NCBI RefSeq assembly: GCF_031583595.1
Contig: NZ_CP134145.1
Coordinates: 310,001 to 374,000, forward strand
Source of the DNA: Thalassotalea psychrophila
GTDB taxonomy: Bacteria; Pseudomonadota; Gammaproteobacteria; Enterobacterales; Alteromonadaceae
Length of the DNA stretch: 64,000 bases
Direction of reading: 5' to 3'
In this document: positions 16,757-38,734 of the stretch, in pieces
Numbering within the stretch: the stretch's first letter is position 1
How the letters are laid out: each line of letters starts with the position of its first letter
Translations under genes and position numbers: made by a program
The notes under the pieces: model-generated
The model's input: only the letters and a program-made list of their open reading frames with translations
What the model was told of the DNA's origin: nothing
Database searches by the model: none

Positions 16757-18217
16757 ATGACAAATAGTACAGTTCGTTTTTTATTAAACAATGACGTTGT
16801 GACCATAGAAAACATCGACCCAAATTTAACGGTCCTGCAATATTTACGCGAAATAGAATTTAATACTGGCACCAAAGAAGGTTGCGCTTCAGGTGATTGT
16901 GGTGCTTGTACCGTAGTACTTGCGGAGTTAGACAGAGAAAATGCCGATCAACTTAATTATATTTCAATTAACTCGTGTATTACCTTTGTTGGTAACTTAC
17001 ATGGTAAACAATTGATCACTGTTGAAGATTTGAAAGATGGGGCTAAGTTACATCACGCCCAACAAACACTAGTTGATAACCACGGTACACAATGTGGTTT
17101 CTGTACACCAGGTTTTGTTATGTCGTCTTTTGCTTTACACAAGCATAATAAAAAGCCAACTCGTGCACAGGTGCTTGAAGCTCTAGCGGGTAACTTATGT
17201 CGCTGTACAGGTTATCGTTCGATTATTGAAGCCGCGATCACTTCAAGTGAAGGTGTTGAAGAAGATTCTTTTGCCAAGCATTACCAAGAAACAGTTACAA
17301 CGCTTACTGACCTACAAAAATTACCTGCTCCTACATTAACCGGCAATGGTCATAATTTTATTGCACCCAAAAATATCGATGAATTAGCTTACGAGTTAAA
17401 AAGTGAGCCTAGCTCAACTCTAGTTGCGGGCGGTACCGATTTAGCACTTTCAGTTACACAAAACTTAGCAACCATAGATAAACTTGTTTATGTTGGTAAC
17501 GTTGAAGAATTAACAACTATTCAAGAAACAGAAACCGAAATCATTATCGGCTCAGCTCTTCCATACAGTAAATTTATTGATACTTTGCATCATTACTACC
17601 CTGACTTAGGTGACATGATTGAGCGCATTGGTTCAAAACAGGTTCGCAACAATGGTACCTTAGGTGGCAACATTGGCAACGCATCTCCTATTGGTGACAT
17701 GCCACCAGCGCTTATTGCCCTTGGCGCAACCATGACTTTGCATGTAAATGGTGTTGAACGCACAATTTTAGTAGAAGACTATTTTGTTGACTACAAAAAG
17801 ACAGTTCTCAAACCTTCAGAGTTTATCAAGTCAGTGCAAATTCCTAAACCAATTGCTGGTCAAACCTTGAAACTCTACAAAATATCTAAACGTATCGATG
17901 ACGATATCTCTGCCGTACTCGCGGCAATCTTTATTGAGCAACAAGGTCAAGTGATTACTAATATTCGAATGGCTTTTGGTGGCATGGCTGCTATTCCTAA
18001 ACGGGCTCCTGCAGCTGAAGCTGTTCTACAAGGTAACACCTTTACTAAAGACTCAGTTGTTCAAGCAAAAGCAGCTTTGGCTACCGATTTTCAACCTATG
18101 TCTGATGTTCGTGCCTCAGACAAATACCGTATGCGCGTTGCTCAAAACCTAATTGAAAAATGTTATTTAGAGCTGCAAAGCAAAGTGATAGAAACACGAG
18201 TGGTAAATTATGCGTAG
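16757..18217 (+). CDS. xdhA: Xanthine dehydrogenase, iron-sulfur/FAD subunit XdhA
   Basis: Small subunit of the molybdenum hydroxylase that oxidises hypoxanthine to xanthine and xanthine to urate. The first 2Fe-2S cluster ligands are in GCASGDCGACTVV and the second in CGFCTPGF and NLCRCTGYRSI. The FAD domain follows from about residue 190 with VAGGTDLALSV and RNNGTLGGNIGNASPIGDMPPAL. I start at the ATG at 16757, with GGA nine bases upstream, giving 486 residues. The frame is open 84 bases further into the promoter. Its end overlaps xdhB by 8 bases. An operator palindrome lies 75 bases upstream. Confidence 0.95.
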   Translation: MTNSTVRFLLNNDVVTIENIDPNLTVLQYLREIEFNTGTKEGCASGDCGACTVVLAELDRENADQLNYISINSCITFVGNLHGKQLITVEDLKDGAKLHHAQQTLVDNHGTQCGFCTPGFVMSSFALHKHNKKPTRAQVLEALAGNLCRCTGYRSIIEAAITSSEGVEEDSFAKHYQETVTTLTDLQKLPAPTLTGNGHNFIAPKNIDELAYELKSEPSSTLVAGGTDLALSVTQNLATIDKLVYVGNVEELTTIQETETEIIIGSALPYSKFIDTLHHYYPDLGDMIERIGSKQVRNNGTLGGNIGNASPIGDMPPALIALGATMTLHVNGVERTILVEDYFVDYKKTVLKPSEFIKSVQIPKPIAGQTLKLYKISKRIDDDISAVLAAIFIEQQGQVITNIRMAFGGMAAIPKRAPAAEAVLQGNTFTKDSVVQAKAALATDFQPMSDVRASDKYRMRVAQNLIEKCYLELQSKVIETRVVNYA

Positions 18218-20600
18218 TCTTATTGATGTAAAAAAAGCCCAAACACAAAAAATACAAACGAACACTGATAAAAGTGTTGTTAATGGACAAAAAAATGTTG
18301 GTTTAGGCGGTGTAGGTCGTTCTAAAAAACATGAAAGTTCTGATAAGCAAGTTGCAGGTGAGGCTATTTATGTTGATGACCGTCCTGCATTACGTGGTGA
18401 ATTACATGCTGCTGTAGGTCAGAGTACTATTGCTCACGGCAACATTAAAAGCATAGATTTATCAGCGGTGAAAGCTGCTGAAGGTGTTGTTGCGGTCATT
18501 ACCGTTGAAGATGTGCCAGGCCATACAGATATTGGCCCTGTTTTCCCCGGAGACCCAGTACTTGCTATCGGTAAAGTAGAGTTTATCGGCCAGCCAATTT
18601 TTGCCGTTGCGGCAACAAGTTACGATCTTGCCCGCAAAGCAGCAAAGCTTGCAAAAATTGAGTATCAAGAGCTTGAAGCAGTATTAACGGTAAAAGATGC
18701 GTTAACTAAACAAAGTTTCGTTCGACCACCCTTTACAATGAAACGTGGTGATTCGGCATCGGCTATTGCTTCTGCACAGCATCAATTATCAGGTGAAATC
18801 CAAGTTGGTGGTCAAGAACACATGTATCTTGAAGGTCAAGTTTCAACTGCTGAACCAACAGAAGATGGTGGCATGAGTATTTACACTTCATCACAGCATC
18901 CAAGTGAAGTACAAAAACTAGTTGCTGAAGTTTTAGATATTCCATTAAACAAAGTGCTGGTTGATATGCGCCGTATGGGTGGTGGTTTCGGTGGTAAAGA
19001 AACTCAAGCCGCACCTTGGGCATGTATTGCTGCGTTACTTGCTAACGTTACCAAACGTCCAGTTAAATTTAAATTAGGTCGTATGGACGATATGATCATG
19101 ACAGGTAAGCGTCATCCATTTGAAAATAACTACACTGTTGGTTTTGACAATGAAGGTCAGATCAAAGGTATCAACATTGAAGTAAATGGTAACTGTGGTT
19201 ACTCTCCTGATTTATCTGATGCCATAGTTGATCGAGCAATGTTCCATTCAGATAATGCTTATTTCTTAGACCAAGCTACCGTTACTGGTAATCGATGTAA
19301 ATTAAACACAGTTTCTCACACAGCTTACCGTGGCTTTGGTGGTCCTCAAGGTATGATGACGATTGAAATGGTCATGGACGAAATAGCTCGTCATTTAGGT
19401 AAAGACCCGTTAGAAATTAGAAAGGTGAATTTATATGGTCATGAAGACCGTAACGAAACACATTATCATCAAGAAGTTGAACATAATAACTTACCTGAAA
19501 TCATTGCAACATTAGAGCAAAGTTCTGATTATCAAGCCCGTCGTAAAGCAGTTACTGAATTTAATGAAAACAACAGCATACTGAAAAAAGGCATAGCTTT
19601 AACGCCGGTTAAATTTGGTATTTCATTTACTGTTCAACATTTGAACCAAGCCGGGGCGCTTGTTCATATCTATACCGATGGTACGATTCACTTAAGCCAT
19701 GGTGGTAGTGAAATGGGCCAAGGCTTAAACACTAAAGTTGCGCAAATTGTCGCAGAAGAATTTCAAGTTGACGTTGATACGGTTGCCTGCTCTGCTGCGC
19801 GTACTGACAAGGTGCCAAATTCGTCACCAACGGCAGCGTCATCTGGTACCGACTTAAATGGTAAAGCCGCGGAAGCCGCTGCAAAAACCATTAAGCAACG
19901 TTTAATAGATTTTGCTTGTGAAAAATACCAAGTAAAAGCTGAACAAGTTAAATTTGAAAATAACAACATCATTGTTGGTGAGCAAACCTTTAGCTTTGCC
20001 GAGTTTTCACAAATCGCATATATGGGCCGCGTTTCTTTATCTTCTACTGGTTTCTACAAAACACCTAAGATTCATTTTGATCGCGCAACAGGTAAAGGTC
20101 GTCCGTTCTTCTACTACGCAACAGGTGCATCAGTATCTGAAGTATTAATAGATACGCTAACGGGTGAATATAAAAATTTACGTACAGACATACTGCAAGA
20201 TGTTGGTCATTCAATTAACCCTGCAATTGATATTGGCCAAATTGAAGGTGCTTTCATTCAAGGTCAGGGTTGGTTAACTACTGAAGAGTTAGTTTGGAAT
20301 GAGCAAGGACGCTTACTTTCAAATAACCCCGCAACGTACAAAATACCTGCAATCAATGATGCGCCAGAAGATTTTCGCGTAGCACTAGTACCAGATGCAC
20401 CAAACCGTGAACATACTATTTACAACTCAAAAGCTGTTGGTGAACCACCATTTATGCTTGGTATGTCAGTTTGGTCAGCATTAAAAGATGCCGTTGCCAG
20501 CGTGTCAAATTATAAAGTAAGCCCACAACTTGATACGCCTGCAACACCTGAGCGAGTGCTTTGGGCGGTTGAATCTGTAAAAGCACAAGCTCAAGATTAA
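18210..20600 (+). CDS. xdhB: Xanthine dehydrogenase, molybdopterin-binding subunit XdhB
   Basis: Large subunit (796 residues) that holds the molybdenum cofactor. Recognisable blocks are GEAIYVDD near the N-terminus, MRRMGGGFGGKE and AYRGFGGPQG (cofactor contacts), SHGGSEMGQGLNTKVAQIVAEEF, and the C-terminal VGEPPFMLG whose glutamate is the catalytic base of the family. It starts inside xdhA (8-base overlap), and xdhC follows after 21 bases. The N-terminal 35 residues are a charged, lysine-rich stretch before the conserved domain, somewhat longer than usual. Confidence 0.96.
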   Translation: MRSLIDVKKAQTQKIQTNTDKSVVNGQKNVGLGGVGRSKKHESSDKQVAGEAIYVDDRPALRGELHAAVGQSTIAHGNIKSIDLSAVKAAEGVVAVITVEDVPGHTDIGPVFPGDPVLAIGKVEFIGQPIFAVAATSYDLARKAAKLAKIEYQELEAVLTVKDALTKQSFVRPPFTMKRGDSASAIASAQHQLSGEIQVGGQEHMYLEGQVSTAEPTEDGGMSIYTSSQHPSEVQKLVAEVLDIPLNKVLVDMRRMGGGFGGKETQAAPWACIAALLANVTKRPVKFKLGRMDDMIMTGKRHPFENNYTVGFDNEGQIKGINIEVNGNCGYSPDLSDAIVDRAMFHSDNAYFLDQATVTGNRCKLNTVSHTAYRGFGGPQGMMTIEMVMDEIARHLGKDPLEIRKVNLYGHEDRNETHYHQEVEHNNLPEIIATLEQSSDYQARRKAVTEFNENNSILKKGIALTPVKFGISFTVQHLNQAGALVHIYTDGTIHLSHGGSEMGQGLNTKVAQIVAEEFQVDVDTVACSAARTDKVPNSSPTAASSGTDLNGKAAEAAAKTIKQRLIDFACEKYQVKAEQVKFENNNIIVGEQTFSFAEFSQIAYMGRVSLSSTGFYKTPKIHFDRATGKGRPFFYYATGASVSEVLIDTLTGEYKNLRTDILQDVGHSINPAIDIGQIEGAFIQGQGWLTTEELVWNEQGRLLSNNPATYKIPAINDAPEDFRVALVPDAPNREHTIYNSKAVGEPPFMLGMSVWSALKDAVASVSNYKVSPQLDTPATPERVLWAVESVKAQAQD

Positions 20601-20621
20601 GCAAGAGTATAGGAGAAACAG

Positions 20622-21554
20622 ATGACTACTAAAATGAACTGGAATAGCGCCTCATATCAATTAAGCAAGCAAGGCCAGGCCTATGTGTTGGTAACATTGG
20701 TTGGTGTCTCTGGTTCAACGCCAAGAAACAGTGGTACAAAAATGGTTATCACCGCTGATGACATTTTTGACACCATTGGTGGTGGTCATCTTGAACACAA
20801 AACCATAAAACATGCCAAAGCAATGCTCGCTGGTGGTAAAAATGCGCAACACTTAGAACACTTTCAATTAGGCAGTAATTTAGGCCAATGTTGCGGTGGC
20901 AACGCCACCGTTTTGTTTGAATGTTTTTCAGCGGTTGGCGTGAATATTATGCTTTTTGGTGCAGGTCATGTTGGTAAAGCTTTAGTGCCAATTTTGGCGC
21001 AATTACCTTGCCAAGTGACCTGGGTTGATAGTCGCGAAGAACAATTTCCGAGTGATGTAGAAACTTATCATAACGTTCGCAAAGTGGTTGCTGAAGAGCC
21101 TGAACTTGAAGTGAACAGTATGCCAGAAAACAGCTACTACATTGTGATGACTCATAATCATCAAATGGACTTTGAAATTTCTCAGGCAATTTTAAAGCGC
21201 AGCGACTTTTCTTACTTAGGCTTAATTGCTTCTGACACCAAAAAACGTCGTTTTGAACAACGCTTTAAACACCGTGAAATCGACCCTGTGCAAGTGGCAC
21301 GTATGAACTGTCCTATTGGTCTTGAGCAAGTAGGTGGCAAGCTGCCAATGGAAGTTGCTGTATCGATTGCAGGTGAGGTTATCCACTGCTATCAACAAGC
21401 AAATAAACAAAAAGAAGCGCTGCAAAGCCAGCATCAATCTATCGCTGCCAATGATGCAAATACGAAAGTATCAAAAAAACGTCCTGTTTCGCAACAGGGT
21501 ATTCATTGGCAAGAATTCAAGCAGCTTTTGACTACCGAAGAGTCAAATAGTTAG
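20622..21554 (+). CDS. xdhC: Xanthine dehydrogenase accessory protein XdhC
   Basis: Chaperone that binds the molybdenum cofactor, supports its sulfuration and inserts it into XdhB. The N-terminal XdhC/CoxI domain has VGVSGSTPRNSGTKM and GGGHLEH. The Rossmann domain has MLFGAGHVGKALVPIL, and MTHNHQMDFEI and LGLIASDTKKRRFEQR follow, all family hallmarks. At 310 residues it is a little long: the last 40 residues are a low-complexity hydrophilic tail. It starts 21 bases after xdhB with AGGAG upstream, within the same operon. Confidence 0.94.
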   Translation: MTTKMNWNSASYQLSKQGQAYVLVTLVGVSGSTPRNSGTKMVITADDIFDTIGGGHLEHKTIKHAKAMLAGGKNAQHLEHFQLGSNLGQCCGGNATVLFECFSAVGVNIMLFGAGHVGKALVPILAQLPCQVTWVDSREEQFPSDVETYHNVRKVVAEEPELEVNSMPENSYYIVMTHNHQMDFEISQAILKRSDFSYLGLIASDTKKRRFEQRFKHREIDPVQVARMNCPIGLEQVGGKLPMEVAVSIAGEVIHCYQQANKQKEALQSQHQSIAANDANTKVSKKRPVSQQGIHWQEFKQLLTTEESNS

Positions 21555-21578
21555 TCGCTAAACAATAGGAGAAGCAAA

Positions 21579-22934
21579 GTGTCTCATTTTGCCCTACAAA
21601 GTAACAATGTCATTATCGACGGTGAAATGATCGCCGCTTGTGTCGAAATAAAAGATGAACTTACCCATGCCATCCATCCACATGGTCAAGCCTTGTCATG
21701 TCCAGTACAAGATTTTGGCGACAAAGTGATCATGCCTGGTTTGGTTGACTCACATGTACATATTAATGAACCTGGCCGCACCGAATGGGAAGGATTTAAT
21801 ACAGCAACTCAAGCCGCAGCAGCAGGTGGTATAACTGCGCTAGTTGATATGCCGCTTAATTGTATTCCAGTCACCACCACGAAAGCGGCGTTTCAAGAAA
21901 AGCTTGACTCAGTTGACGATAAATTATGGGTTGATTGTGGTTTTTGGGGCGGGGTTATTCCACAAAATATTGACGATTTAGATGAGCTGTTATGCGCTGG
22001 TGTATTGGGTGTTAAATCATTTTTAATTGACTCTGGTATTGAAGAGTTTCCGCCTGTTGAAGCTAAAGATATGCGCGCTGCAATGCCTATTCTTGCTAAG
22101 CATGACGTACCATACTTGATTCATGCCGAATTAGATTGTGGCAGCTTCAATGATGTTGTTATTACTAAAGAATACAACTCGTTCTTAGAGTCTCGTCCAA
22201 AAAGTTGGGAAAACGATGCTATTTCACTAATGGTGGATATGGCTCGTGAGTCAAAAGAACAGGGTGACAACTGTAAAGTTCATATCGTGCATTTATCTTC
22301 AGATGAAGCATTAGACACTATTGCTCAGGCAAAGCAAGAAGGCTTACGTTTTACTGCTGAAACCTGTCCTCATTACTTAACACTTGCCTCTGAACAAATT
22401 CCTGATGGAAAAACATTATTTAAATGTTGTCCACCAATTCGTGAAAACAAAAATCGCGAACACTTATGGCAAGCAGTTACAGATGGTCGATTAGATTTCA
22501 TCGTATCTGATCATTCACCTTGTACACCTGAGCTTAAGCACATTGATACCGGTGATATTGAGAAAGCTTGGGGTGGAATTTCAGCATTGCAGTTTGGCTT
22601 ACCACTTATTTGGACTGAAGCGAAAGAGCGCGGTTTTACCTTAATCGACTTAGCCCGCTTAATGTCGAGTGAAACGGCTAAGTTTGCTGGATTAGACTCA
22701 GTTAAAGGCAAAATTGCCATCGGTCATCATGCCGATTTTTTAGTGTTTGATCCGACCGTGAGATACACAATTACTAATGACATGATTAAGCACCGTCACA
22801 ATATAACGCCATACGCAGGTCGTCAGGTTGTAGGTCAAGTAGAGCACACTTTTGTTCGTGGCCATCATGTATATCAACAGGACGAATTCATCAATGCGCC
22901 CAAAGGGCGCCCTTTATTAAAAGGAAAGCTGTAA
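21579..22934 (+). CDS. allB: Allantoinase
   Basis: Zinc amidohydrolase that opens allantoin to allantoate; 451 residues as in AllB. Metal ligands are visible: HVHINEPGRTEWEGF (first His pair), the carboxylated lysine in GVKSFLIDSG near residue 147, LIHAE, IVHLSS, and the catalytic Asp in SDHSPC. The start is GTG at 21579, supported by AGGAG eight bases upstream. It lies 24 bases after xdhC. Dihydropyrimidinase or dihydroorotase are excluded by the neighbourhood and by DHSPC, which is typical of allantoinases. Confidence 0.94.
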   Translation: MSHFALQSNNVIIDGEMIAACVEIKDELTHAIHPHGQALSCPVQDFGDKVIMPGLVDSHVHINEPGRTEWEGFNTATQAAAAGGITALVDMPLNCIPVTTTKAAFQEKLDSVDDKLWVDCGFWGGVIPQNIDDLDELLCAGVLGVKSFLIDSGIEEFPPVEAKDMRAAMPILAKHDVPYLIHAELDCGSFNDVVITKEYNSFLESRPKSWENDAISLMVDMARESKEQGDNCKVHIVHLSSDEALDTIAQAKQEGLRFTAETCPHYLTLASEQIPDGKTLFKCCPPIRENKNREHLWQAVTDGRLDFIVSDHSPCTPELKHIDTGDIEKAWGGISALQFGLPLIWTEAKERGFTLIDLARLMSSETAKFAGLDSVKGKIAIGHHADFLVFDPTVRYTITNDMIKHRHNITPYAGRQVVGQVEHTFVRGHHVYQQDEFINAPKGRPLLKGKL

Positions 22935-23015
22935 TTCTCAGTTGCCAAAGTAGGTAGCAACAATTATTGCAAATATTGAATCATTAACAAATTTTAGATG
23001 TAGGAAAGAAAAGCT

Positions 23016-24086
23016 ATGATGCTAGATATAGATACTCAAGAACAGAACAAGCTAGAAGGCGCTGCTCTTGAATTAGAACAAAAATTAAAAACTCATTGTG
23101 TTGATTTGGCCAATGAACGCGTAGGCGGTGAAACACTGTCTTGTAGTGATGATTTTTTTGCTGAAATGGAAAATTTAATCAAACCTGGTCGCGGCATTTT
23201 TATCGACGATAAATTTACCGATCGTGGCAAATGGATGGACGGTTGGGAATCTCGTCGTAGTTATGGTCGTGACAATGGTCGTGAATTTGACTGGTGCATC
23301 ATTCGTCTAGGCATTAAAGGTGTTATTCGTGGCTTTGATATCGATACTAACTACTTCCGTGGTAACGCACCAGAGTCAGTATCTGTTGAGGCATGTGTGA
23401 GTGAAGTTGAACCTAATGCCGACACCATTTGGGAAACTGTGTTAGAGCAAGCGGGTGTTGATGCTCACAGCCAAAATATTTTTACCATCAATAATGATAA
23501 AGCTTATACCCATATTCGTTTAAACATGTTCCCAGATGGTGGTGTTGCCCGTATCCGTGTTTATGGTGAAGCCGAAGTAAATTGGAATCAATTTATAGAC
23601 GGTGAGTTAATCGATTTAGCCTACATTAAAAATGGCGGTAAAGCGTTATTAGTAAGCGACATGTTCTTTAGTGATAAAAATAATTTAATTATGCCTGGTC
23701 GTGGTAAAGATATGGGAGATGGTTGGGAAACTAAGCGTCGTCGTGATCCAGGACCAGATTGGTCTATCGTTAAACTAGCCAGTCGTGGCAGCATTGAAAA
23801 AGTTATCGTAGATACTTGCCACTTTAAAGGTAATTTCCCAGACACCTTCACCTTAGAAGGTATGGTGTCCGACAGTGATGACTTCAGCGATGGTCAACAA
23901 GAAGATAAATGGCAGCCGATTATTGCGCGCACTAAACTATATGCACATCGTGAACATTTATTTATTAATGAAATTGCTGTTAATAACGAACAAAGCTTCA
24001 CCCACGTGCGTTTAAATATCTTCCCTGACGGCGGTATTTCTCGTATGCGCGTCTTTGGGAAAATGCTTGGCAAAGTTAACTCATAA
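23016..24086 (+). CDS. alc: Allantoicase
   Basis: Hydrolyses allantoate to ureidoglycolate and urea. The 356-residue protein is a tandem of two related jelly-roll domains. The repeat is visible in paired segments: GWESRRSYGRDNG with GWETKRRRDPGPD, DTNYFRGNAPESVSVE with DTCHFKGNFPDTFTLE, and HIRLNMFPDGGVARIRVYG with HVRLNIFPDGGISRMRVFG. The last motif is the family signature. It follows allantoinase by 80 bases. Use of allantoicase rather than allantoate amidohydrolase means nitrogen leaves as urea, not ammonia. Confidence 0.96.
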   Translation: MMLDIDTQEQNKLEGAALELEQKLKTHCVDLANERVGGETLSCSDDFFAEMENLIKPGRGIFIDDKFTDRGKWMDGWESRRSYGRDNGREFDWCIIRLGIKGVIRGFDIDTNYFRGNAPESVSVEACVSEVEPNADTIWETVLEQAGVDAHSQNIFTINNDKAYTHIRLNMFPDGGVARIRVYGEAEVNWNQFIDGELIDLAYIKNGGKALLVSDMFFSDKNNLIMPGRGKDMGDGWETKRRRDPGPDWSIVKLASRGSIEKVIVDTCHFKGNFPDTFTLEGMVSDSDDFSDGQQEDKWQPIIARTKLYAHREHLFINEIAVNNEQSFTHVRLNIFPDGGISRMRVFGKMLGKVNS

Positions 24087-24097: not shown

Positions 24098-24607
24098 ATG
24101 AATTTAGAACAATTAAATAGTTTCTCCGTTGAGCAAGCAACACATACGTTTATGCAATGCTGTACTTCATCAACTTGGGTAAACTCTATGGTTAAGGCAC
24201 GTCCTTTCGTTGATGAAAGAGCAATTGCCAATCAAGCTGATTTAGCCTGGCAAGAGTTGACTGAACCAGACTACATGGAAGCTTTTGAAGGACACCCAAA
24301 AATTGGTGACGTCAGCAGTTTACGTGCTAAGTATGCCAATACAAAAGAATTAGCGGGTAACGAGCAAGGCTTAGTTAAAGAAGCGAACGAAGATGTTCTG
24401 CAAGTATTGTCTCAAGGTAATGCAGATTATGAAGAGAAGTTCGGTTTTATCTTTATCGTTTGTGCGACGGGTAAAAGTGCCAAGCAAATGTCAGACTTAC
24501 TGCAAGCACGTTTACCAAATAACAAAGCACAAGAATTAATCAATGCTGCTGAAGAGCAAAGAAAAATATTTCAACTTCGCATCGATAAAGCATTAGCTGA
24601 AGGTTAG
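24098..24607 (+). CDS. uraD: 2-oxo-4-hydroxy-4-carboxy-5-ureidoimidazoline (OHCU) decarboxylase
   Basis: Decarboxylates OHCU to (S)-allantoin. It has 169 residues, the usual size. The catalytic histidine is in AFEGHPKIGDVSSLRAKY near residue 66, and the second signature is YEEKFGFIFIVCATGKS. It starts 11 bases after allantoicase. Together with the HIU hydrolase gene next to it, it completes the stereospecific urate-to-allantoin route. Confidence 0.96.
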   Translation: MNLEQLNSFSVEQATHTFMQCCTSSTWVNSMVKARPFVDERAIANQADLAWQELTEPDYMEAFEGHPKIGDVSSLRAKYANTKELAGNEQGLVKEANEDVLQVLSQGNADYEEKFGFIFIVCATGKSAKQMSDLLQARLPNNKAQELINAAEEQRKIFQLRIDKALAEG

Positions 24608-24674: not shown

Positions 24675-25016
24675 ATGAGTCAAATTACTACTCACATACT
24701 GGACACGACGCGTGGTTTACCCGCAAAAAATGTTCCTATCACTTTGTTTGCCCAGCAGGGTGATGAATGGCAAAAAATCAATGGTGGCGTTACAAATGAT
24801 GATGGCCGTTTACCAGGGTTATTAGCTGAGGATAAAAAGTTACCTGCAGGTGTTTATCGCATGCACTTTGCTACTTCTGTTTATTTTAAAGCAAACAGCG
24901 AAGAAGGTTTTTACCCATATGTTGATATCGTTTTTGAAATCGACGCGAGTGGTACGCATTATCATATTCCATTGCTATTAACTGCATATGGTTATTCAAC
25001 TTACCGTGGCAGTTAA
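24675..25016 (+). CDS. uraH: 5-hydroxyisourate hydrolase (transthyretin-like)
   Basis: Converts 5-hydroxyisourate, the product of urate oxidation, to OHCU. At 113 residues with no signal peptide it is cytoplasmic. The family signature is complete: ITTHILDTTRGLPAKNVPI at the N-terminus, the FYPYVDIVFEI strand, and the C-terminal tetrapeptide YRGS that closes the active site. An AAGGA lies upstream of the start. The ureidoglycolate lyase gene follows. Confidence 0.97.
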   Translation: MSQITTHILDTTRGLPAKNVPITLFAQQGDEWQKINGGVTNDDGRLPGLLAEDKKLPAGVYRMHFATSVYFKANSEEGFYPYVDIVFEIDASGTHYHIPLLLTAYGYSTYRGS

Positions 25017-25038
25017 CCACCTTTTAATGGGAAAGCTA

Positions 25039-25557
25039 ATGGACACTACAATGACTGATAATATCCAAACCATTACACCAAAACCGTTAACTGCAGATGC
25101 TTTTAGTATTTTTGGTGATGTAATAGAAGCCAATACAGATGCAAAAAACTTTGCGATTAACGATGGCTTTACCCAGCGTTATCACGATTTAGCTAAGGTT
25201 GATGTTAATGATAATAATGGTCATGCCTTGATCAGTATCTTTCGCTCAACCCCATTAGTACAACCAATCGCCATTAAAATGATGGAGCGTCATCCTCATG
25301 GCAGCCAAGCATTTATTCCTATGGGGGAGAACCCGTATTTAGTGGTCGCTGCCCCTGCTGGCGAATTTGATGTGAACAACATAGAAGTGTTTATCGCCAA
25401 AGCTAGCCAAGGCATAAATTATCACAAAGGTACTTGGCACCATTTTTGTTTAGCTTTGAATAGTGAGAGTGACTTTCTAGTAGTAGATAGAGGCGGCGAG
25501 GGTGACAACTGTGACGTGCTTGAATTAGATGGTTCTTTGGTAATAGCACAAAGCTAA
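25039..25557 (+). CDS. allA: Ureidoglycolate lyase
   Basis: Splits (S)-ureidoglycolate into glyoxylate and urea, the last step of the pathway. Conserved blocks are ERHPHGSQAFIPM and INYHKGTWHHFCLAL, containing the metal- and substrate-binding histidines. The frame is open back to 24988, overlapping uraH, but GGGAAA five bases before the ATG at 25039 decides for that start, giving 172 residues. The alternative enzyme ureidoglycolate amidohydrolase is unrelated in sequence. The product glyoxylate feeds the malate synthase and bhc genes in this window. Confidence 0.93.
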   Translation: MDTTMTDNIQTITPKPLTADAFSIFGDVIEANTDAKNFAINDGFTQRYHDLAKVDVNDNNGHALISIFRSTPLVQPIAIKMMERHPHGSQAFIPMGENPYLVVAAPAGEFDVNNIEVFIAKASQGINYHKGTWHHFCLALNSESDFLVVDRGGEGDNCDVLELDGSLVIAQS

Positions 25558-25700: not shown

Positions 25701-25767
25701 ATTAGATACATAAAAATATCGCAACTAAAAATATAAAATAGCCGATATAAAGTAAAAGGTGAAGAAC

Positions 25768-28377: not shown

Positions 28378-30567
28378 ATGAATAAACGAGTAATGAAACA
28401 CGGCTATAAAGTAGCCGAATCCCTATATAATCTAGTAGAACACGAAGTACTACCGGGCACAGGTATAGATGCTGATGGTTTTTGGCAAGCAATGGCGAAT
28501 ATTTTTGATGAGTTCACCCCAAAAAATCAAAAATTATTAGCAATTCGCGAACAGTTTCAAACACAAATTGACGCTTGGCACTTAGACCCAAATAACCAAC
28601 CTTTTGAGCAAGAAAAATATCAACATTTTTTAATGGATATTGGTTATATCGTTGCTGAAAAACCAGACTTTTCTATTACTACCAACTACGTTGATGAAGA
28701 GGTTGCGACAGTAGCTGGACCACAACTTGTTGTGCCATTAATGAATGCTCGTTTTGCTTTAAATGCCGCTAATGCTCGTTGGGGAAGTATGTACGATGCC
28801 CTTTATGGCACAGATGTTATTAGTGATGAAGGTGGCGCAGAAGTTAACAAAACTTATAATCCGGTTCGTGGCGAAAAAGTACAAACCTATGCTCGTCAAT
28901 TTTTAGACAATGTGATCCCACTTTCTGGAGGTAGTTACAAAGATGCCGTTAGTTATCAGGTTGCCAAAGGTAAGTTAATAGTCACTACTAAACTCGGCGA
29001 ACAGTTAGGTTTAGTTGATGAAAACAAATTTGTCGCTTTTAATGGTGCAGAGCAAAATCCAAGTGCAATTTTATTCAAAAATAACGGTTTGCATATCGAA
29101 ATTAAAATCGATCCAAGTACACCTGTTGCTAAAACTGATCCCGCATCGGTTGCTGACATCATTCTTGAATCAGCACTGAGTACCATTCAAGATTGTGAAG
29201 ATTCAATTGCTGCAGTAGATGCGGAAGATAAAACGGCGGTGTATCGAAACTGGTTAGGGTTAATGAAAGGTGACTTAAAGGAAACCTTGAAAAAGAATGA
29301 TGTCACTATCACTCGCCAGCTTAACGGCGATAGAGTATACACTGCTGCTGATAATCAAGAACTAACTCTGCCAGGTCGAAGTTTGTTATTTGTTCGCAAT
29401 GTTGGCCATCTTATGACTAATGATGCTGTGCTAACCAATGATAACAAAGAAGTACCTGAAGGTATTTTAGATGGTTTGATCACTACCTTAATTTCATTGC
29501 ATGACTTGAAAGGTAATTCTCCTTATAAGAATTCACGCCAAGGTAGTATTTACATAGTAAAACCGAAAATGCATGGCCCAGATGAAGTAGCCTTTAGTAA
29601 TGAGTTATTCACCCGCATAGAGTCTTGTTTAGGGCTGGCAACTAATACCATTAAAATGGGTATTATGGATGAAGAACGCCGCACATCGGTAAATTTAAAA
29701 GAATGTATACGCGCTGCTAGAAATCGTCTGGCATTCATCAATACCGGGTTTTTAGACCGAACCGGTGATGAAATTCATACCAGTATGCAAGCAGGCGCTA
29801 TGGCTCGAAAAGAGCTGATGAAAAATGAGAAATGGATCAGTGCCTATGAAAACCGCAATGTGCGAATTGGTTTGCAAGCTGGCCTTAAAGGTAAAGCACA
29901 AATAGGCAAGGGCATGTGGGCAATTCCTGATGAAATGTCAGCGATGGTTGATACTAAAGTTGCTCACCCCAAATCCGGTGCAAATTGTGCGTGGGTACCT
30001 TCACCAACAGCGGCTACCTTACATGTTATGCACTATCATCAAGTCAATGTCAGTGCTATCCAAGAAAATATGCTTAAGCAATTTGTCGCTAATGGTGACA
30101 ATGATGATTTAACTGACTTATTAACCATTCCGTTGTTGAAAAATCAACATGAGCTGAGCAAGCAAGATATTCAAAATGAATTGGACAACAATGTTCAAGG
30201 GCTTTTGGGATATGTTGTGCGCTGGATCGACCAAGGCACAGGTTGTTCAAAAGTACCTGATATTAACAATGTTGGCCGTATGGAAGACAGAGCTACACTA
30301 CGAATTTCAAGCCAGCACATTTGCAATTGGTTACATCATGGCATTTTAACCAAAGAGCAAGTGTTAGAATCGCTACAGCGGATGGCACAAGTGGTTGATC
30401 TACAAAACATAACTGATGCTAGTTATTTACCAATGGCCCCTGATTTTGACAATAACATTGCATTCAAAGCAGCTGTTGATTTAATTTTCAAAGGCAAAGA
30501 GCAACCAAGTGGTTATACAGAACCATTATTGCATCAGCGCCGCATTGAATTAAAAGCGGTAAATTAA
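28378..30567 (+). CDS. glcB: Malate synthase G
   Basis: Condenses glyoxylate with acetyl-CoA to malate. At 729 residues it is close to E. coli GlcB (723). Visible blocks include [18 protein letters not shown], the loop [36 protein letters not shown] (metal-binding Glu/Asp region) and [18 protein letters not shown]. The ribosome site before the ATG at 28378 is weak; a second ATG five codons on is possible. Its place at the end of the purine operon shows that glyoxylate from ureidoglycolate is assimilated. A terminator follows. Confidence 0.97.
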
Positions 30568-30745: not shown

Positions 30746-31372
30746 GTGGCAAAAGCTAAAGCCTCAGAAGGCAATGTTAGACAAAAAAATAAATCGTTAA
30801 TCTTTAATGCAGCCAAAAAAGAGTTTGTTACCTACGGCTTTAAAGGTGCATCAATTAAGCGTATTGCCGAACGGGCGAATATTGCTCGTGCGAATATCCA
30901 TTATTATTTTCAAGACAAAACCGATCTCTATCAGCAACTGCTGAGCAATATCATTGAAGTGTGGAATAGAGACTACGATACTTTAAATGCTGATCAAGAA
31001 CCAAAAGCTGCTCTAAGTTCCTATATTAGAGCAAAAGTAATGCATTCAAAGAATGATCCCGACTCATCGAGAATCTTCGCCAGCGAGCTAATTCATGGCG
31101 CACCGGTATTGGAAGAATATCTCAATACCGACTTTAGAGAGTGGCTACAAAGTAAAGTTGCTGTTATTGAAGCTTGGATTGAGCAAGGACAAATTGATCA
31201 ACTAAATCCACATCATCTATTATTTTTAATTTGGAGTTCGACCCAACATTACGCCGACTTTAATGTGCAAGTTGTCGCAGCTTTAAACAAAGAAGAAATG
31301 AACGATGAAGATTTTGAAGAAGTTGTAAGCTCATTAACGCAAATTATTCTAAAGGGTTGTGGCATCAACTAA
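30746..31372 (+). CDS. TetR family regulator, RutR-like
   Basis: A 208-residue repressor with an N-terminal TetR helix-turn-helix (residues 16-62; FKGASIKRIAERANIARANIHYYFQDKTDLY). Its C-terminal domain resembles RutR/YcdC (SRIFASELIHGAPVLEEYL and WIEQGQIDQLNPHHLLFLIWSSTQHYADF). RutR senses uracil or thymine in E. coli and also controls purine-related genes. The start is GTG, with GGAG five bases upstream. By position it is the likely regulator of the purine cluster, acting at the TTGACA-type palindromes at 16666, 50698 and 50777. That link is inference. Confidence 0.85.
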   Translation: MAKAKASEGNVRQKNKSLIFNAAKKEFVTYGFKGASIKRIAERANIARANIHYYFQDKTDLYQQLLSNIIEVWNRDYDTLNADQEPKAALSSYIRAKVMHSKNDPDSSRIFASELIHGAPVLEEYLNTDFREWLQSKVAVIEAWIEQGQIDQLNPHHLLFLIWSSTQHYADFNVQVVAALNKEEMNDEDFEEVVSSLTQIILKGCGIN

Positions 31373-34391: not shown

Positions 34392-35384
34392 CTAAAAATT
34401 GATATAGCTTGCTTGGCCTTTAGCTTCTGCTAAATCTGCTGCAGCAGATGCAACAGCTAAATCTTGTAAACCAACGCCAGTTCCGTCAAATAGCGTAATT
34501 TCATCTGCAGAGCTACGTCCTGGTTTTGTGCCATTGATCACCTCACCAATAGGAGTAATGTCAGCTTCTTTTATTAACCCTTGAATAACAGCGTGTTGTG
34601 CTTCACCAATGGTAATTGATTGCGCTAGCTCATCAGTGAAAACAGTTGCTTTTTTCAATAAGTTCGCATCTACTTCTTGTTTACCCTTAGTGTCTGTACC
34701 CATACACGCAATGTGAGTACCAGGTTTTATCCAGTCAACGTTTAGTAATGGTTCAAAGGCTGAAGTGATGGTAATAATTACATCTGCTTGAGCACCTAAT
34801 TCTTCTCGAGTTACTGACTCAAAAGGTAATGATAATTCAGCACAAATATCAGCTAAGTTATCAAGTTTGTCGGGGTCGATGTTCCAAGCAACTATCTTTT
34901 CAAAGTTACGTTGCTCAACAGCCGCTCTTAATTGGAATGTTGATTGATGGCCTGCGCCGACCATACCCAATACTTTTGCATCTTTTCGGGCTAAATGGGC
35001 AATAGATACCGCAGAAGAGGCTGCAGTTCTCACCGCAGTTAAATAGTTACCACCAACAAGAGATTTTAATTTTCCGGTATCGGGATCAAATAAAATAACC
35101 GTTGATTGGTGATTGGTTAGGTCTTTTTTAACATTACCTGGCCAATAGCCACCTGATTTTAAGCCTAATACCATGCCGTCACGATCAAAGCCCGATTTAA
35201 ACCCATAAAGGGCATCTTCATGGCCAATGGCTTCACGGATCACAGGGAAGTTATAGGCAGTATTTTTTGCCATCGCAGCAAATACATTTTCGACGGCAGT
35301 AAAGGATTCACTTCGTCCCATTATTTGTTGGCATACTTCTTCAGATACTACGGTAACGCCTTTGTTTATATTGTTAACACTCAT
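34392..35384 (-). CDS. bhcD: Iminosuccinate reductase BhcD (ornithine cyclodeaminase/mu-crystallin family)
   Basis: A 330-residue NAD(P)-binding enzyme of the OCD/mu-crystallin family. It shows FKSGFDRDGMVLGLKSGGYWPGN (substrate-binding lysine region), the Rossmann motif VLGMVGAGHQSTFQLRA and PGTHIACMGTDTKGKQEVD. In the beta-hydroxyaspartate cycle BhcD reduces iminosuccinate to L-aspartate. The family also contains ornithine cyclodeaminase and other imine reductases; the specific call depends on the bhcB and bhcC genes directly upstream in one operon (gaps of about 60 and 40 bases). AGGAAC lies five bases before the start. Confidence 0.85.
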   Translation of the reverse strand: MSVNNINKGVTVVSEEVCQQIMGRSESFTAVENVFAAMAKNTAYNFPVIREAIGHEDALYGFKSGFDRDGMVLGLKSGGYWPGNVKKDLTNHQSTVILFDPDTGKLKSLVGGNYLTAVRTAASSAVSIAHLARKDAKVLGMVGAGHQSTFQLRAAVEQRNFEKIVAWNIDPDKLDNLADICAELSLPFESVTREELGAQADVIITITSAFEPLLNVDWIKPGTHIACMGTDTKGKQEVDANLLKKATVFTDELAQSITIGEAQHAVIQGLIKEADITPIGEVINGTKPGRSSADEITLFDGTGVGLQDLAVASAAADLAEAKGQASYINF

Positions 35385-35445
35385 ATTTTGTTCCTAAGGT
35401 GGAGATAAGCCCCTCAGTGAATACTAAGGGGAGGAAGAATAGTGA

Positions 35446-36594
35446 TTAGTAAGCTTTACCACGAGCCGATACTGGCCATAGCTTTTCAACTTTACCGTTA
35501 CGAACACCAACATAGTAATCATGTACGTTACATGTAGGATCGCAATGCCCTGGCACTAATTTTAATTTTTCATTAACTTTTAGTGCACCAGATGGATCAG
35601 AAATTACACCATGTTCATCAGAACATTTAACGTATTCAACATCATCACGGCCGAAAATGTATGGTAATCCACTATCTACAGATTGCGCTTTTAGGCCCGC
35701 ATCACATATAGCTTTATCAGCCTTTGAATGGCTCATTACCGACGTTAAAATGAATAAAGAATTTTCAAATTCTGAAATTCTCTCGCCGTTCTCATCATGA
35801 ATACGTTGGTAATCAGCATCCATAAATGCATAAGAGCCACATTGCAATTCATTGAAAACACCAGAATTACCTTCAAAGTAGTATGAACCTGTACCACCAC
35901 CACCAACGATGTCACACTCAAGACCTTCAGTTTTTAGCATGTCGATTGTGCGAGCAACCATACCAATAGCAATATCTATTTTTTCTTTACGCTCTTGGTA
36001 GTTTTCCATGTGCTGCATTGCACCTTGGTAAGCTTGAATACCCGCAAATTTTAAACCTGGAGTTGCCGCAATTGCTTTAGCAATGTCTACAACCGGTTGA
36101 CCTTCGCTAACACCACAACGACCAGCACCACAGTCAATTTCAACTAAACACTCAATTTCAGTACCGTGCTTTTTAACTGCGGCTGCTAATTCAGCAACGT
36201 TATCTATGTCATCAACACAACAAAGTGTACGAGCGCCTAATTTAGGCATACGCGCTAAGCGATCAATTTTTGCTGGATCACGCACTTGGTTAGACACTAA
36301 AACATCTTTAATACCACCACGTGCAAATACTTCAGCTTCTGAAACCTTTTGACAACATACACCGCAACTGTCACCCAACTGTTCTTGTAACAACGCTATA
36401 TCAACAGATTTGTGCATTTTTCCATGTACACGATGACGAACGCCCATGTCTTTAGCGTATTGTCCCATGGTCTTTATATTGCGCTCTAGAGCGTCGAGAT
36501 CTACCACTAAACATGGGGTTTGAATATCGGCTTCATCCATACCTGGTACTGCAGGCACGTCAAAACCCACTTCTAAATTACTTCCTCTAGCCAT
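35446..36594 (-). CDS. bhcC: Beta-hydroxyaspartate aldolase BhcC (D-threonine aldolase-like)
   Basis: PLP-dependent alanine-racemase-fold aldolase that joins glycine and glyoxylate to (2R,3S)-beta-hydroxyaspartate. The PLP lysine is about residue 59 in RVHGKMHKS, and the PLP phosphate site is in IVGGGGTGSYYF. The C-terminal divalent-metal ligands are in PGHCDPTCNVHDYY. It has 382 residues from the ATG at 36594, which has GGAG six bases upstream; the frame also reads from a TTG four codons earlier. D-threonine/D-serine enzymes are relatives, but the operon context favours BhcC. Confidence 0.87.
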   Translation of the reverse strand: MARGSNLEVGFDVPAVPGMDEADIQTPCLVVDLDALERNIKTMGQYAKDMGVRHRVHGKMHKSVDIALLQEQLGDSCGVCCQKVSEAEVFARGGIKDVLVSNQVRDPAKIDRLARMPKLGARTLCCVDDIDNVAELAAAVKKHGTEIECLVEIDCGAGRCGVSEGQPVVDIAKAIAATPGLKFAGIQAYQGAMQHMENYQERKEKIDIAIGMVARTIDMLKTEGLECDIVGGGGTGSYYFEGNSGVFNELQCGSYAFMDADYQRIHDENGERISEFENSLFILTSVMSHSKADKAICDAGLKAQSVDSGLPYIFGRDDVEYVKCSDEHGVISDPSGALKVNEKLKLVPGHCDPTCNVHDYYVGVRNGKVEKLWPVSARGKAY

Positions 36595-36634
36595 TTTATT
36601 CTCCAAATTTTAAATTTAAGTTTTAGTATTCGTT

Positions 36635-37612
36635 TTATTTGTTCATCCATGGAAGTTTGTCTAAATCAACATTACCTCCAGTAATAATTACCCCGATACG
36701 TTTACCTTTAAATACCTCAGGGTTTTTTAATATGATTGCCAAAGTGACTGCACTGCTTGGCTCTATTACTAACTTCATGCGCAACCAAATAAGTTTCATC
36801 GCCGCCACGATCTCTTCCTCTGTGGCAGTTAAAATATCGGTCACATGGTTTTTAACAAAATGCCAAGTAAGATCTTTTAATGGTACTTTTAGCCCATCAG
36901 CAATTGTGTTTGGTGCATCATCGGCAATAATATGCCCTGCCTTAAATGAGCGAGCTGCATCATCGGCATTAACAGGCTCAGCAGCATATATATTTATATT
37001 TGGTGCAATGGTCGATAGCGTTAAACATGTACCAGATATCATGCCACCGCCACCAATAGGTGCTACTACGGTATCTAAATTTGGTACTTGCTTAACCAGT
37101 TCTTTTGAACAGGTAGCTTGGCCTGCAATAACACGTGGATCATTATAAGGGTGTACAAAATCTGCCCCTGATTCAGCTACTACATCGGCAAAAACGGCTT
37201 CTCTTGAACTCGTAGAAGGTTCACATTCAACAATGCTACCGCCATAACCAATTACGGCATCTTTTTTCGCTTGTGGAGCCGTTCGTGGCATCACCACTGT
37301 TACTGGAATACCACGCTGTCCTGCCGCATACGACAACGATAAGGCGTGATTACCTGAAGAATGAGTAGCTACGCCAATTTTCGCTTCTTCATCGGTTAAT
37401 CCAAACACGGCATTACAAGCGCCTCGTACTTTAAATGCTGCAGCTTTTTGCAAGTTTTCACATTTAAAAAATAATTCTGCCCCTGTTAATTCATTTAAAA
37501 AACGAGAAGTTAACACTGGTGTCTCATGAATATAGGGTTGGATGCGTTCATGGGCTACTAGCACATCATCATAAGTTGGTATGTACATAGTCGATTTGGT
37601 TGAACTGCTCAT
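36635..37612 (-). CDS. bhcB: Beta-hydroxyaspartate dehydratase BhcB (threonine/serine dehydratase family)
   Basis: Fold-type II PLP enzyme of 325 residues. The Schiff-base lysine is residue 61 in KAAAFKVRGA, the asparagine loop is THSSGNHALSL, and the PLP phosphate loop is IGGGGMISG. In the beta-hydroxyaspartate cycle it removes water from beta-hydroxyaspartate to form iminosuccinate. Threonine dehydratase and serine racemase are close relatives. It is first in the minus-strand bhcB-bhcC-bhcD operon, with AGAGGAT before its ATG. Three operator palindromes lie 100-260 bases upstream, in the region shared with the divergent IclR-type gene. Confidence 0.87.
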   Translation of the reverse strand: MSSSTKSTMYIPTYDDVLVAHERIQPYIHETPVLTSRFLNELTGAELFFKCENLQKAAAFKVRGACNAVFGLTDEEAKIGVATHSSGNHALSLSYAAGQRGIPVTVVMPRTAPQAKKDAVIGYGGSIVECEPSTSSREAVFADVVAESGADFVHPYNDPRVIAGQATCSKELVKQVPNLDTVVAPIGGGGMISGTCLTLSTIAPNINIYAAEPVNADDAARSFKAGHIIADDAPNTIADGLKVPLKDLTWHFVKNHVTDILTATEEEIVAAMKLIWLRMKLVIEPSSAVTLAIILKNPEVFKGKRIGVIITGGNVDLDKLPWMNK

Positions 37613-37711
37613 ATTATCCTCTCAATATTGATCAAGGTACTGGCTTATCATGGTCAGTAGTTTTCCTTGACGATATGCTTACTATTAATTTGTTTTAAAT
37701 TTCAAAATCAA

Positions 37712-37726
37712 TTTCACCTTATGAAA
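37712..37726. promoter_or_regulatory. IclR-type operator, site 1
   Basis: TTTCACCTTATGAAA: seven-base arms around one base, five of seven pairs matched. Nearest of the three sites to bhcB. Confidence 0.6.
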
Positions 37727-37754
37727 TGTTGCAGTGTTACTCAAACGAAGTGGA

Positions 37755-37769
37755 TTCCACATTGTGAAA
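37755..37769. promoter_or_regulatory. IclR-type operator, site 2
   Basis: TTCCACATTGTGAAA: six of seven pairs matched. It lies 143 bases upstream of bhcB. Confidence 0.7.
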
Positions 37770-37856
37770 TTAATGTCAGGTGATATTGCATGGATATTAA
37801 GGAAGTCATTGGATTAAAAGAGGTTTATTTGGTTTTTAACGATTCACAATATAAAA

Positions 37857-37871
37857 TTTCACAATGTGAAA
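37857..37871. promoter_or_regulatory. IclR-type operator, site 3
   Basis: TTTCACAATGTGAAA: a perfect palindrome with a one-base centre, 86 bases upstream of the IclR-type gene and the likely autoregulatory site. Confidence 0.75.
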
Positions 37872-37957
37872 TTAATAAACATCTTCCATCATATGGTTTT
37901 TTTGTGCTTTTAGATTTATATTCGAACTAAGCGCAGTCTCAACGAGTAGCAAAAAAT

Positions 37958-38734
37958 ATGAAAAAAGCCAAACCAGAATCTAGAATTCAAGTGATCGACA
38001 GAGCAGCAATGTTACTTGATGCTATATCACGCTATTCAATGCCGGTAACGCTAAAAGCGCTTAGTGCGGACACCAATTTGGCGCCTTCTACAGCATTTCG
38101 TATTTTGCATTCGTTAATTGATAACCGCTTTGTCGATAGAGATGACACAGGAAAATATCAGTTAAGTGGTCGCTTAATACGATTAAGTAATTCGCAATAT
38201 ATTAATATCGATTTTCGTAAAGTAGCTAAACCTTATATGGAAAAGCTACGTGATAAATTTGGTGAAACCATTAATCTCACTACTCGTGAGGGTGACGTGG
38301 TTATTTACGTAGAAAAAGCGATCCCCAATCGAATGATGCACGTTCAACAAATTATTGGTAGTCGAGCTCCTTTACATGTAACCGGAGTGGGTAAAATGAT
38401 GTTGGGTATGGAAGGTAAAGATGGCATTCACGGCTATGCTCAACGTACTAATTTACCTGGTTATACGCGCAAAACGTTTTCAACAATAGACACCTTAGAG
38501 CATGAATGTATGAAATGTGTTGAACAAGGCTTTGCTTATGACAATGAGGAAGCTGAAATAGGGGTGGGCTGTATTGGTGTACTTTTGTATGACCGATACG
38601 GCGAAGTCGTTGCAGGATTATCTGTTTCTGCTCCAATTGAGCGACGCAAAGAAGAATGGATTAATGACCTAGTTGCAGCTGGAAGGTCACTATCAGCTGA
38701 ACTTGGTTATGTAGAAAATCAAGTTTCAAATTAA
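37958..38734 (+). CDS. bhcR: IclR family transcriptional regulator (BhcR-like)
   Basis: A 258-residue regulator with an N-terminal winged helix (about residues 8-65; VIDRAAMLLDAISRY and LAPSTAFRILHSLIDNRFV). The C-terminal IclR effector domain includes GSRAPLHVTGVGKMML and IGVGCIGVLLYDRYGEVVAGLSVSAP. It is divergent from bhcBCD, the same arrangement as bhcR and bhcABCD in Paracoccus, where the regulator responds to glyoxylate (established for that system, recalled from memory). It probably binds the TTYCACA-N-TGTGRAA palindromes here and elsewhere in the window. Confidence 0.82.
   Translation: MKKAKPESRIQVIDRAAMLLDAISRYSMPVTLKALSADTNLAPSTAFRILHSLIDNRFVDRDDTGKYQLSGRLIRLSNSQYINIDFRKVAKPYMEKLRDKFGETINLTTREGDVVIYVEKAIPNRMMHVQQIIGSRAPLHVTGVGKMMLGMEGKDGIHGYAQRTNLPGYTRKTFSTIDTLEHECMKCVEQGFAYDNEEAEIGVGCIGVLLYDRYGEVVAGLSVSAPIERRKEEWINDLVAAGRSLSAELGYVENQVSN

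Follow-up and report, generated by a model that had tools for sequence, protein, structure and literature searches.

The beta-hydroxyaspartate cycle has been described as a route for glycolate, and the described system closest to the one reported here is the bhcRABCD gene set of Paracoccus denitrificans. Passages of PMC11323563 report that binding of BhcR to DNA in this organism responds to glyoxylate and pyruvate, and the same source already names purines and allantoin among the possible origins of glyoxylate. No cluster of purine and bhc genes appears in passages of PMC11166783, PMC10499878 and PMC5343134, and none was found described in the literature searched, which was mostly open-access and did not extend to the founding 2019 Nature paper and its supplement. 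We have analyzed a stretch of 64,000 nucleotides of Thalassotalea psychrophila (positions 310001-374000 of a one-contig genome of 4.81 Mb; hereafter the window), in which bhcB, bhcC and bhcD lie beside the genes of purine breakdown and bhcA is missing. With a probability of about three in four, we propose that this locus encodes a variant beta-hydroxyaspartate cycle, fed by purines, in which an alanine-glyoxylate-type aminotransferase (AGT) stands in for BhcA, and that the genes form a purine-to-carbon island served by one type of IclR operator.

Genes were called from open reading frames (ORFs) and from NCBIfam and Pfam scans with curated cut-offs (Table 1). The purine genes from xdhA to malate synthase G all lie on the forward strand (16757-30567), and bhcBCD lie 3.8 kb beyond them, on the reverse strand (34392-37612); an initial annotation, made from the sequence by itself, had placed the purine genes on one strand and the bhc genes within 4 kb after them, and had named their functions correctly. 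Every named purine and Bhc enzyme passes its curated NCBIfam cut-off except PuuD, whose identity is based on Pfam Urate_ox_N. Aerobic catabolism of purines to glyoxylate is represented, by sequence family, at every one of xanthine dehydrogenase, urate oxidation, allantoinase, allantoicase and ureidoglycolate lyase. The island reaches about 53.2 kb of the window, beyond the limit of 38,734 set earlier, and the gene for AGT is found 13 kb from bhcC.

The equivalog cut-offs of BhcB, BhcC and BhcD are exceeded by modest margins (593/550, 725/690 and 582/500 bits). Among solved structures, BhcC is matched by the D-3-hydroxyaspartate aldolase 6qkb with 635 bits, the best D-threonine aldolase reaching 344, and BhcD by the iminosuccinate reductase 6rqa with 420 bits as against 163 for alanine dehydrogenase. 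The nearest solved relatives of BhcB are serine racemases (up to 335 bits), and no chain named BhcB is found among the 60 listed of 116 solved relatives, so that its identity is drawn from the NCBIfam score and the operon context. With that qualification for BhcB, the three genes belong to the Bhc families, as had been supposed, rather than to those of D-threonine aldolase, threonine dehydratase and ornithine cyclodeaminase. The window BhcC shares 97% identity with a Thalassotalea fonticola protein. Genome G452 has, besides its BhcC, a diverged BhcC-like aldolase of 437 bits, which is below the cut-off (L027; G452:C1:2515282-2516382).

The operon does not encode a complete beta-hydroxyaspartate cycle, as no match to BhcA above the cut-off exists in the genome. 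A search of the whole genome with the BhcA model returned one gene only at E <= 0.001, with 213 bits where the cut-off is 650; this sole match is AGT, far below the cut-off, and a BhcA encoded elsewhere in the genome was therefore ruled out. Nor did tblastn find any remnant of bhcA in the gap between bhcB and iclR at E <= 1. Because BhcA is absent, the pathway of the window has to be regarded as a variant and not as the canonical cycle. AGT is a class V aminotransferase (Pfam Aminotran_5) whose best solved relative is 1vjo (334 bits), ahead of PucG (3isl, 256 bits) and UGXT (3nnk, 242 bits). In alignments with alanine-glyoxylate aminotransferases it retains the Lys and Arg of the family motifs, which we take to be the pyridoxal phosphate lysine and the carboxylate-binding arginine. 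To our knowledge, no member of the alanine-glyoxylate aminotransferase family has been known as a partner of BhcBCD.

The epidemiology of this arrangement was addressed in related genomes. Since an order-wide sample contained too few cases of BhcC (1 of 247 genomes over the cut-off), the family was searched instead, giving 23 of 395 genomes, with a further search of the class giving 5 of 369; the T. psychrophila genome is counted in each of these totals, and G262, which has only a 335-bit aldolase, was excluded from the 23. Allantoicase is present in 53 of the 395 family genomes and in 19 of the 23 with BhcC (Fisher p 6e-15, with shared ancestry ignored), and the co-occurrence of purine and bhc genes is not due to chance. 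The comparison of neighbourhoods proposed in the initial annotation, when run in the family, yielded these 19 genomes with both BhcC and allantoicase and a conserved unit. In gene maps of the 23, bhcC shares its contig with purine genes at a distance of 2-21 kb in 21 genomes; in G435 and G596 bhc and allantoicase are on separate contigs. Gene order differs between genomes (in G541, for example, xdhA is 2.9 kb from bhcC), which means that the linkage has survived rearrangement. The four BhcC-bearing genomes of g93 have no allantoicase, but xdhC, uraD, uraH, allA and guaD adjoin their bhc genes; allantoicase was for this reason dropped as a constant marker. One of these four, G442, carries instead of allantoicase a bifunctional allantoate/ureidoglycine hydrolase over the cut-off (L064:17886-18722). 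The same type of locus occurs twice in Shewanella: L101 carries AGT, permease and puuD, and L106 carries AGT and permease before the contig ends.

BhcA was over its cut-off in none of the 36 family genomes searched, which included all 23 with BhcC, while each of these 23 has a match to the BhcA model of the strength of AGT (192-216 bits; in G596 identified by score alone). In 19 of these genomes no more than 25 kb separate AGT from bhcC; in G452 the distance is about 50 kb, and in G596 the two genes are on different contigs. When 46 genomes were searched for AGT at 80% identity or more, it was found in 12 of 12 genomes with BhcC as against 3 of 34 that have allantoicase without BhcC. Most other BhcC-free genomes with allantoicase have an AGT relative of 65-77% identity, which, where the two share a contig, is mostly at least 70 kb from allantoicase. 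The island AGTs form one clade (ultrafast bootstrap, UFBoot, 96) of 26 entries and a second copy from the BhcC-bearing G247, apart from the 65-77% AGTs of most bhc-free purine users; the AGT of G596 was left out of the tree. By these sequence comparisons the tie of AGT to bhcBCD is closer than its tie to purine use as such, though it is not exclusive.

The bhcB-iclR gap contains three copies of ATTTCACNNTGTGAAAT. These blocks are conserved in an alignment of 31 gaps, and two of the three are also present in Bermanella and Marinomonas. A position weight matrix (PWM) built from the bhcB-iclR gaps only finds five sites of score 18 or more in the window, whereas first-order random sequence would be expected to give 0.05 per 64 kb. 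Three of the five are in the gap, and the other two precede the NCS2 permease and the hypoxanthine phosphoribosyltransferase (PRT). Counting sites of score 15 or more up to 400 bp upstream, in those of the 26 bhc-bearing loci (window included) where the gene could be assessed, a predicted operator precedes bhcB in 26 of 26, which is the training set, and outside the training set it precedes xdhA in 7/12, NCS2 in 9/13, PRT in 5/5 and SulP, which is divergent from NCS2, in 2/11. The separate xdhA contig of G596 also carries one. The position differs between groups: in Colwellia the site is about 280-310 bp upstream of xdhA, and in Thalassotalea, two Shewanella and three others it stands before NCS2. 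In bhc-free purine clusters the corresponding counts are 0/4 for xdhA, 0/2 for NCS2 and 1/1 for PRT (G511, a weak site of 16.0), and six bhc-free clusters had no operator of score 15 or more in the stretches scanned. No operator was found in the bhc-bearing loci upstream of the Tsx gene (0/19), guaD (0/21) or tetR (0/22), and a RutR-type box, sought for the TetR regulator, gave 4 matches against 4.06 expected. The view that purine and bhc genes are a conserved unit is supported by the shared predicted operators.

In the T. psychrophila genome the pattern TTYCAYNNTRTGRAA occurs in nine distinct places, five of them inside the island; the reversed control gave 4 and 4 where the pattern itself gave 9 forward and 5 reverse matches. 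Of the sites outside the island, one stands roughly 140 bp upstream of a further malic enzyme gene, which encodes 569 aa; G452 (taken as T. fonticola) conserves 16 of the 17 bases of this site, in flanks that have partly diverged. A second outside site falls within an ORF of 188 aa. Two further observations concern similar sites. In Colwellia, strong operators stand in the 3' flank of agt (L035:18448-18516) with no adjoining gene start, perhaps as a relic of a lost phosphoribosyltransferase gene, and in G487 a palindromic operator-like site, which may be due to chance, is located some 195 bp upstream of the gene for a dCache chemoreceptor (L196:4107).

An IclR-type gene divergent from bhcB, as initially annotated, is present at 37958-38734 on the forward strand; its product is not a curated BhcR, scoring 157 bits against a cut-off of 350. 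The bhcA-bearing Bermanella locus has an IclR of the same non-curated type (147 bits). The window protein has Gly160, Val161, Asp212, Ser239 and Ser241 at the published glyoxylate site, and four of the five oxygen-binding residues are kept (Gly160, Asp212, Ser239 and Ser241) by our own mapping of Table 1 in PMC11323563 through an AllR alignment. This is consistent with a glyoxylate ligand.

The origin of the bhcA-less loci was traced in a scan of named genomes, in which the best 80 of at least 571 loci were compared. bhcA adjoins bhcB in 0 of 17 Colwellia/Thalassotalea/Shewanella loci and in 8 of 10 other gammaproteobacterial loci, and among the remaining 53, which are mostly alphaproteobacterial, in 45 of 46 that could be assessed, the upstream stretch being too short in seven. 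The BhcA proteins of L109, L099 and L130 pass the curated cut-off. In a tree of BhcB, BhcC and BhcD with an alphaproteobacterial root, from which G480 and other broken or partial Bhc loci were left out, 27 bhcA-less Colwellia/Thalassotalea/Shewanella entries make one clade (UFBoot 97), followed by successive bhcA-bearing outgroups: Bermanella L109 (99), Marinomonas L099 (100), and Amphritea and kin (100). Since the bhcA-less clade is nested within bhcA-bearing ones, bhcA was, by parsimony, probably lost rather than never present. In L109, a Bermanella metagenome-assembled genome (MAG) with bhcABCD, the IclR protein is 83% identical to that of the window and bhcA sits in the very bhcB-iclR gap where the window has none. 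Loci with bhcC and no bhcA also occur outside the Colwellia/Shewanella clade, in a Solemya velum symbiont (L139), Rhodovulum adriaticum (L166) and an Oceanospirillaceae MAG (L144). It should also be noted that in Bermanella and Marinomonas bhcABCD is followed by a gene of the PEP-mutase/isocitrate-lyase superfamily (L109:12558-13421, L099:12422-13282), which perhaps serves oxaloacetate decarboxylation.

Linkage to purine genes is not restricted to the bhcA-less clade. Among loci with full flanks, bhcC has at least two purine genes inside 10 kb in 9 of 33 that are mostly alphaproteobacterial and in 2 of 8 from other gammaproteobacteria, a count limited by the use of window proteins as queries. 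In the bhcA-less clade itself such flanks give an underestimate (3 of 14 with at least two purine genes), because AGT and spacer genes often fill them, and longer stretches were used there. Loci with bhcABCD and at least two purine genes within 10 kb of bhcC are L110, L112, L121, L123, L126, L129, L147, L155, L160, L161, L165, L168 and L169; loci of this kind belong to Rhodobacteraceae, other alphaproteobacteria, and Amphritea and kin. The coupling of purine and bhc genes may have arisen more than once.

From gene content we infer the following activities and fluxes. Guanine, hypoxanthine and xanthine would be taken up and degraded via urate and allantoin to urea and glyoxylate, with two glyoxylate formed per pair of purines. 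The island AGT would transaminate one glyoxylate to glycine, the donor being probably alanine or serine, and BhcC would condense this glycine with the second glyoxylate to beta-hydroxyaspartate. BhcB and BhcD would then give aspartate, from which ordinary aminotransferases would produce oxaloacetate and restore the amino donor, the loop thus being closed by general transamination. The net result would be the conversion of two glyoxylates into one C4 unit without loss of CO2. An IclR protein sensing glyoxylate or pyruvate would, through one operator, tie bhc to purine uptake or breakdown and to the distant malic enzyme gene. Malate synthase consumes acetyl-CoA; acting with malic enzyme and pyruvate dehydrogenase, it would bring about the oxidation of glyoxylate with no net gain of acetyl-CoA. 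Of the two routes for assimilation of purine carbon initially put forward, the one through bhc is made probable by the place of these genes in a conserved purine unit; malate synthase alone, since it consumes acetyl-CoA, is not a second net route, and malate synthase G with malic enzyme would rather be a parallel oxidative one. We lean slightly towards the wider view that Colwelliaceae and some Shewanella have a distinct purine-fed pathway in which a dedicated AGT has displaced BhcA and a glyoxylate-responsive IclR reaches from purine uptake or breakdown to malic enzyme, which would be the first assimilation of purine carbon, and not of purine nitrogen alone, without loss of CO2 from glyoxylate.

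Several observations weigh against the proposed pathway and the role of AGT in it. Glycine could come from enzymes other than AGT, and BhcC should accept any glycine, so that AGT could be unrelated to bhc, with glycine supplied by serine hydroxymethyltransferase, glycine cleavage or the medium and BhcBCD acting as a linear route from glycine plus glyoxylate to aspartate. No operator was found upstream of AGT (0/21), glcB (0/17) or the island malic enzyme (0/19). In G392 and G426, two of the four g93 genomes, AGT is 0.5-0.8 Mb from bhcC. The three BhcC-free genomes with an island-type AGT are G511, G283 and G601 (in the last the gene is partial), and in G397, likewise BhcC-free, a 75% AGT is just 6.4 kb from allantoicase; from these four cases it follows that AGT has uses without Bhc. 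The close tracking of BhcC by the island-type clade and the position of AGT near bhcC in most genomes nevertheless make a wholly separate AGT unlikely. That AGT could be a ureidoglycine-glyoxylate aminotransferase of the PucG/UGXT type, working in an alternative purine branch, agrees with the presence of 3isl and 3nnk among its structural relatives and with the ureidoglycine-pathway hydrolase of G442; the alanine-glyoxylate aminotransferase 1vjo is closer, however, and the window has an allantoicase, with which ureidoglycine should not form, and we regard this assignment as most improbable. In G511, whose genome is 87% complete, an island with AGT and PRT has no bhcBCD, iclR or hbpS between its SulP and TetR genes (L075-L076).

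The purine and bhc genes could also be mere neighbours, the former serving for nitrogen, as purine degradation commonly does, and the latter for glycolate or another source of glyoxylate. A GlcD-like protein of more than 500 bits is indeed encoded in 2 of the 23 purine-type genomes (G247 and G573), no operator precedes NCS2 in the four g93 genomes or xdhA in the only readable one (G442), and xdhA has no operator in four Thalassotalea loci either. GlcD is missing or weak, on the other hand, in 21 of the 23; in T. psychrophila the best match to this glycolate oxidase subunit has 266 bits against a cut-off of 567.9, in a search that did not cover FMN-type oxidases. Five further genomes of the class have BhcC at E <= 1e-150, and four of them encode a GlcD-like protein of more than 500 bits. 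All three class genomes in which bhcA was seen to adjoin bhcB (G980, G885 and G775) are among these four; in G973, the fourth, the 1.7 kb that precede bhcB showed no bhcA. The 500-bit line is ad hoc, and no GlcD-like protein passes 567.9, those of bhcA-bearing genomes included, which lessens the force of this comparison. A glycerate pathway via glyoxylate carboligase was considered as another outlet and rejected, none of 29 genomes having gcl over the cut-off (best match in T. psychrophila 328 bits against 711). The persistence of the neighbourhood through changes of gene order between genera, and the recurrence of operators before xdhA, permease and PRT but not before xdhA and NCS2 of bhc-free clusters, render mere adjacency quite unlikely. 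As for the operators, they are matched to the IclR protein by position only, and could belong to another regulator; in G452 (5 forward and 4 reverse matches against 4 and 5) and in G487 (5 and 6 against 5 and 8) the reversed control is matched as often as the pattern itself or more often. The signal is in the location of the sites, clustered in the island and before these genes, and not in their total in the genome. That the sites stand between bhcB and iclR in all 26 loci, that Bermanella and Marinomonas share two of the alignment blocks, that bhc-free clusters have none apart from a single weak site in G511, a genome devoid of iclR and bhc, and that the TetR gene has none make a different regulator very unlikely. 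We therefore retain the purine-fed variant with AGT and an IclR operator as the preferred reading.

Table 1. Features of the T. psychrophila window (coordinates within the window; scores in bits unless marked PWM).
Feature	Coordinates	Strand	Evidence
xdhA, xanthine dehydrogenase small subunit	16757..18217	+	TIGR02963 598, cut-off 467
xdhB, xanthine dehydrogenase molybdopterin subunit	18210..20600	+	TIGR02965 1316, cut-off 850
xdhC, accessory protein	20622..21554	+	TIGR02964 307, cut-off 162
allB, allantoinase	21579..22934	+	TIGR03178 583, cut-off 358
Allantoicase	23016..24086	+	TIGR02961 414, cut-off 278
uraD, OHCU decarboxylase	24098..24607	+	TIGR03180 200, cut-off 139
uraH, hydroxyisourate hydrolase	24675..25016	+	TIGR02962 146, cut-off 87
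allA, ureidoglycolate lyase, glyoxylate-releasing	24988..25557	+	NF002954 237, cut-off 212
guaD, guanine deaminase	25759..27054	+	TIGR02967 621, cut-off 375
puuD, membrane urate hydroxylase	27100..28293	+	Pfam PF06181 418, cut-off 27
glcB, malate synthase G	28378..30567	+	TIGR01345 1105, cut-off 989
TetR regulator, RutR-like	30746..31372	+	TIGR03613 192, below cut-off 368; kept in island of relatives
bhcD, iminosuccinate reductase	34392..35384	-	NF045643 582, cut-off 500; PDB 6rqa best
bhcC, 3-hydroxy-D-aspartate aldolase	35446..36606	-	NF045642 725, cut-off 690
bhcB, beta-hydroxyaspartate dehydratase	36635..37612	-	NF045641 593, cut-off 550
Predicted IclR operator 1	37711..37727	.	palindrome, PWM 23.8
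Predicted IclR operator 2	37754..37770	.	palindrome, PWM 25.4
Predicted IclR operator 3	37856..37872	.	perfect palindrome, PWM 26.5; in conserved alignment block
IclR-type regulator, divergent from bhcB	37958..38734	+	BhcR model 157, below cut-off 350
HbpS-like protein	38855..39289	+	Pfam PF03928; adjoins iclR in most relatives
Urea transporter	39898..40773	+	Pfam PF03253 197
Predicted IclR operator upstream of NCS2 permease	43007..43023	.	PWM 23.4
NCS2 xanthine/uracil-type permease	43141..44673	+	Pfam PF00860 163
PRT, hypoxanthine phosphoribosyltransferase	48919..49452	-	TIGR01203 229, cut-off 150
Predicted IclR operator, 16 bp before PRT start	49469..49485	.	PWM 19.9
AGT, alanine-glyoxylate-type aminotransferase, proposed BhcA stand-in	49518..50639	-	PDB 1vjo 334; BhcA model 213, cut-off 650
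Tsx-like nucleoside channel	50958..51797	+	Pfam PF03502 30, weak
Malic enzyme (island)	51983..53248	+	Pfam PF00390 and PF03949

The true start of allA is probably near 25066. Pfam and NCBIfam scans also place a YtoQ protein and a SulP transporter (BicA-related, below the cut-off) in the island. Two long ORFs of 902 and 741 aa (45495-48203 and 53909-56134) have no Pfam match at E <= 1e-5.

If purines do feed the cycle, the debris of nucleic acids may supply marine bacteria with carbon in addition to nitrogen, and the first step of the cycle would be exchangeable, which is relevant to metabolic engineers who transplant it. The window resembles bhcRABCD of P. denitrificans in the order bhcB-bhcC-bhcD, in the curated families to which these genes belong and in the divergent IclR-type regulator; it differs in having no bhcA, in its setting among purine genes and in a regulator below the BhcR cut-off, and loci of its type differ further in carrying predicted operators on purine genes too and in mostly missing the glycolate oxidase subunit. 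In Rhodobacteraceae and Amphritea, where bhcABCD stands next to purine genes, bhcA is kept and the gene order is different, and their linkage is probably a separate assembly. The best structural relatives of the island aminotransferase are of the alanine-glyoxylate aminotransferase family (1vjo, human AGT1). With the AllR/gcl/allA regulon of Escherichia coli, as treated in passages of PMC11323563, the window shares the use of allantoin and glyoxylate under a regulator of the IclR family; E. coli, however, takes the glycerate pathway, whose carboligase was not found here over the cut-off.

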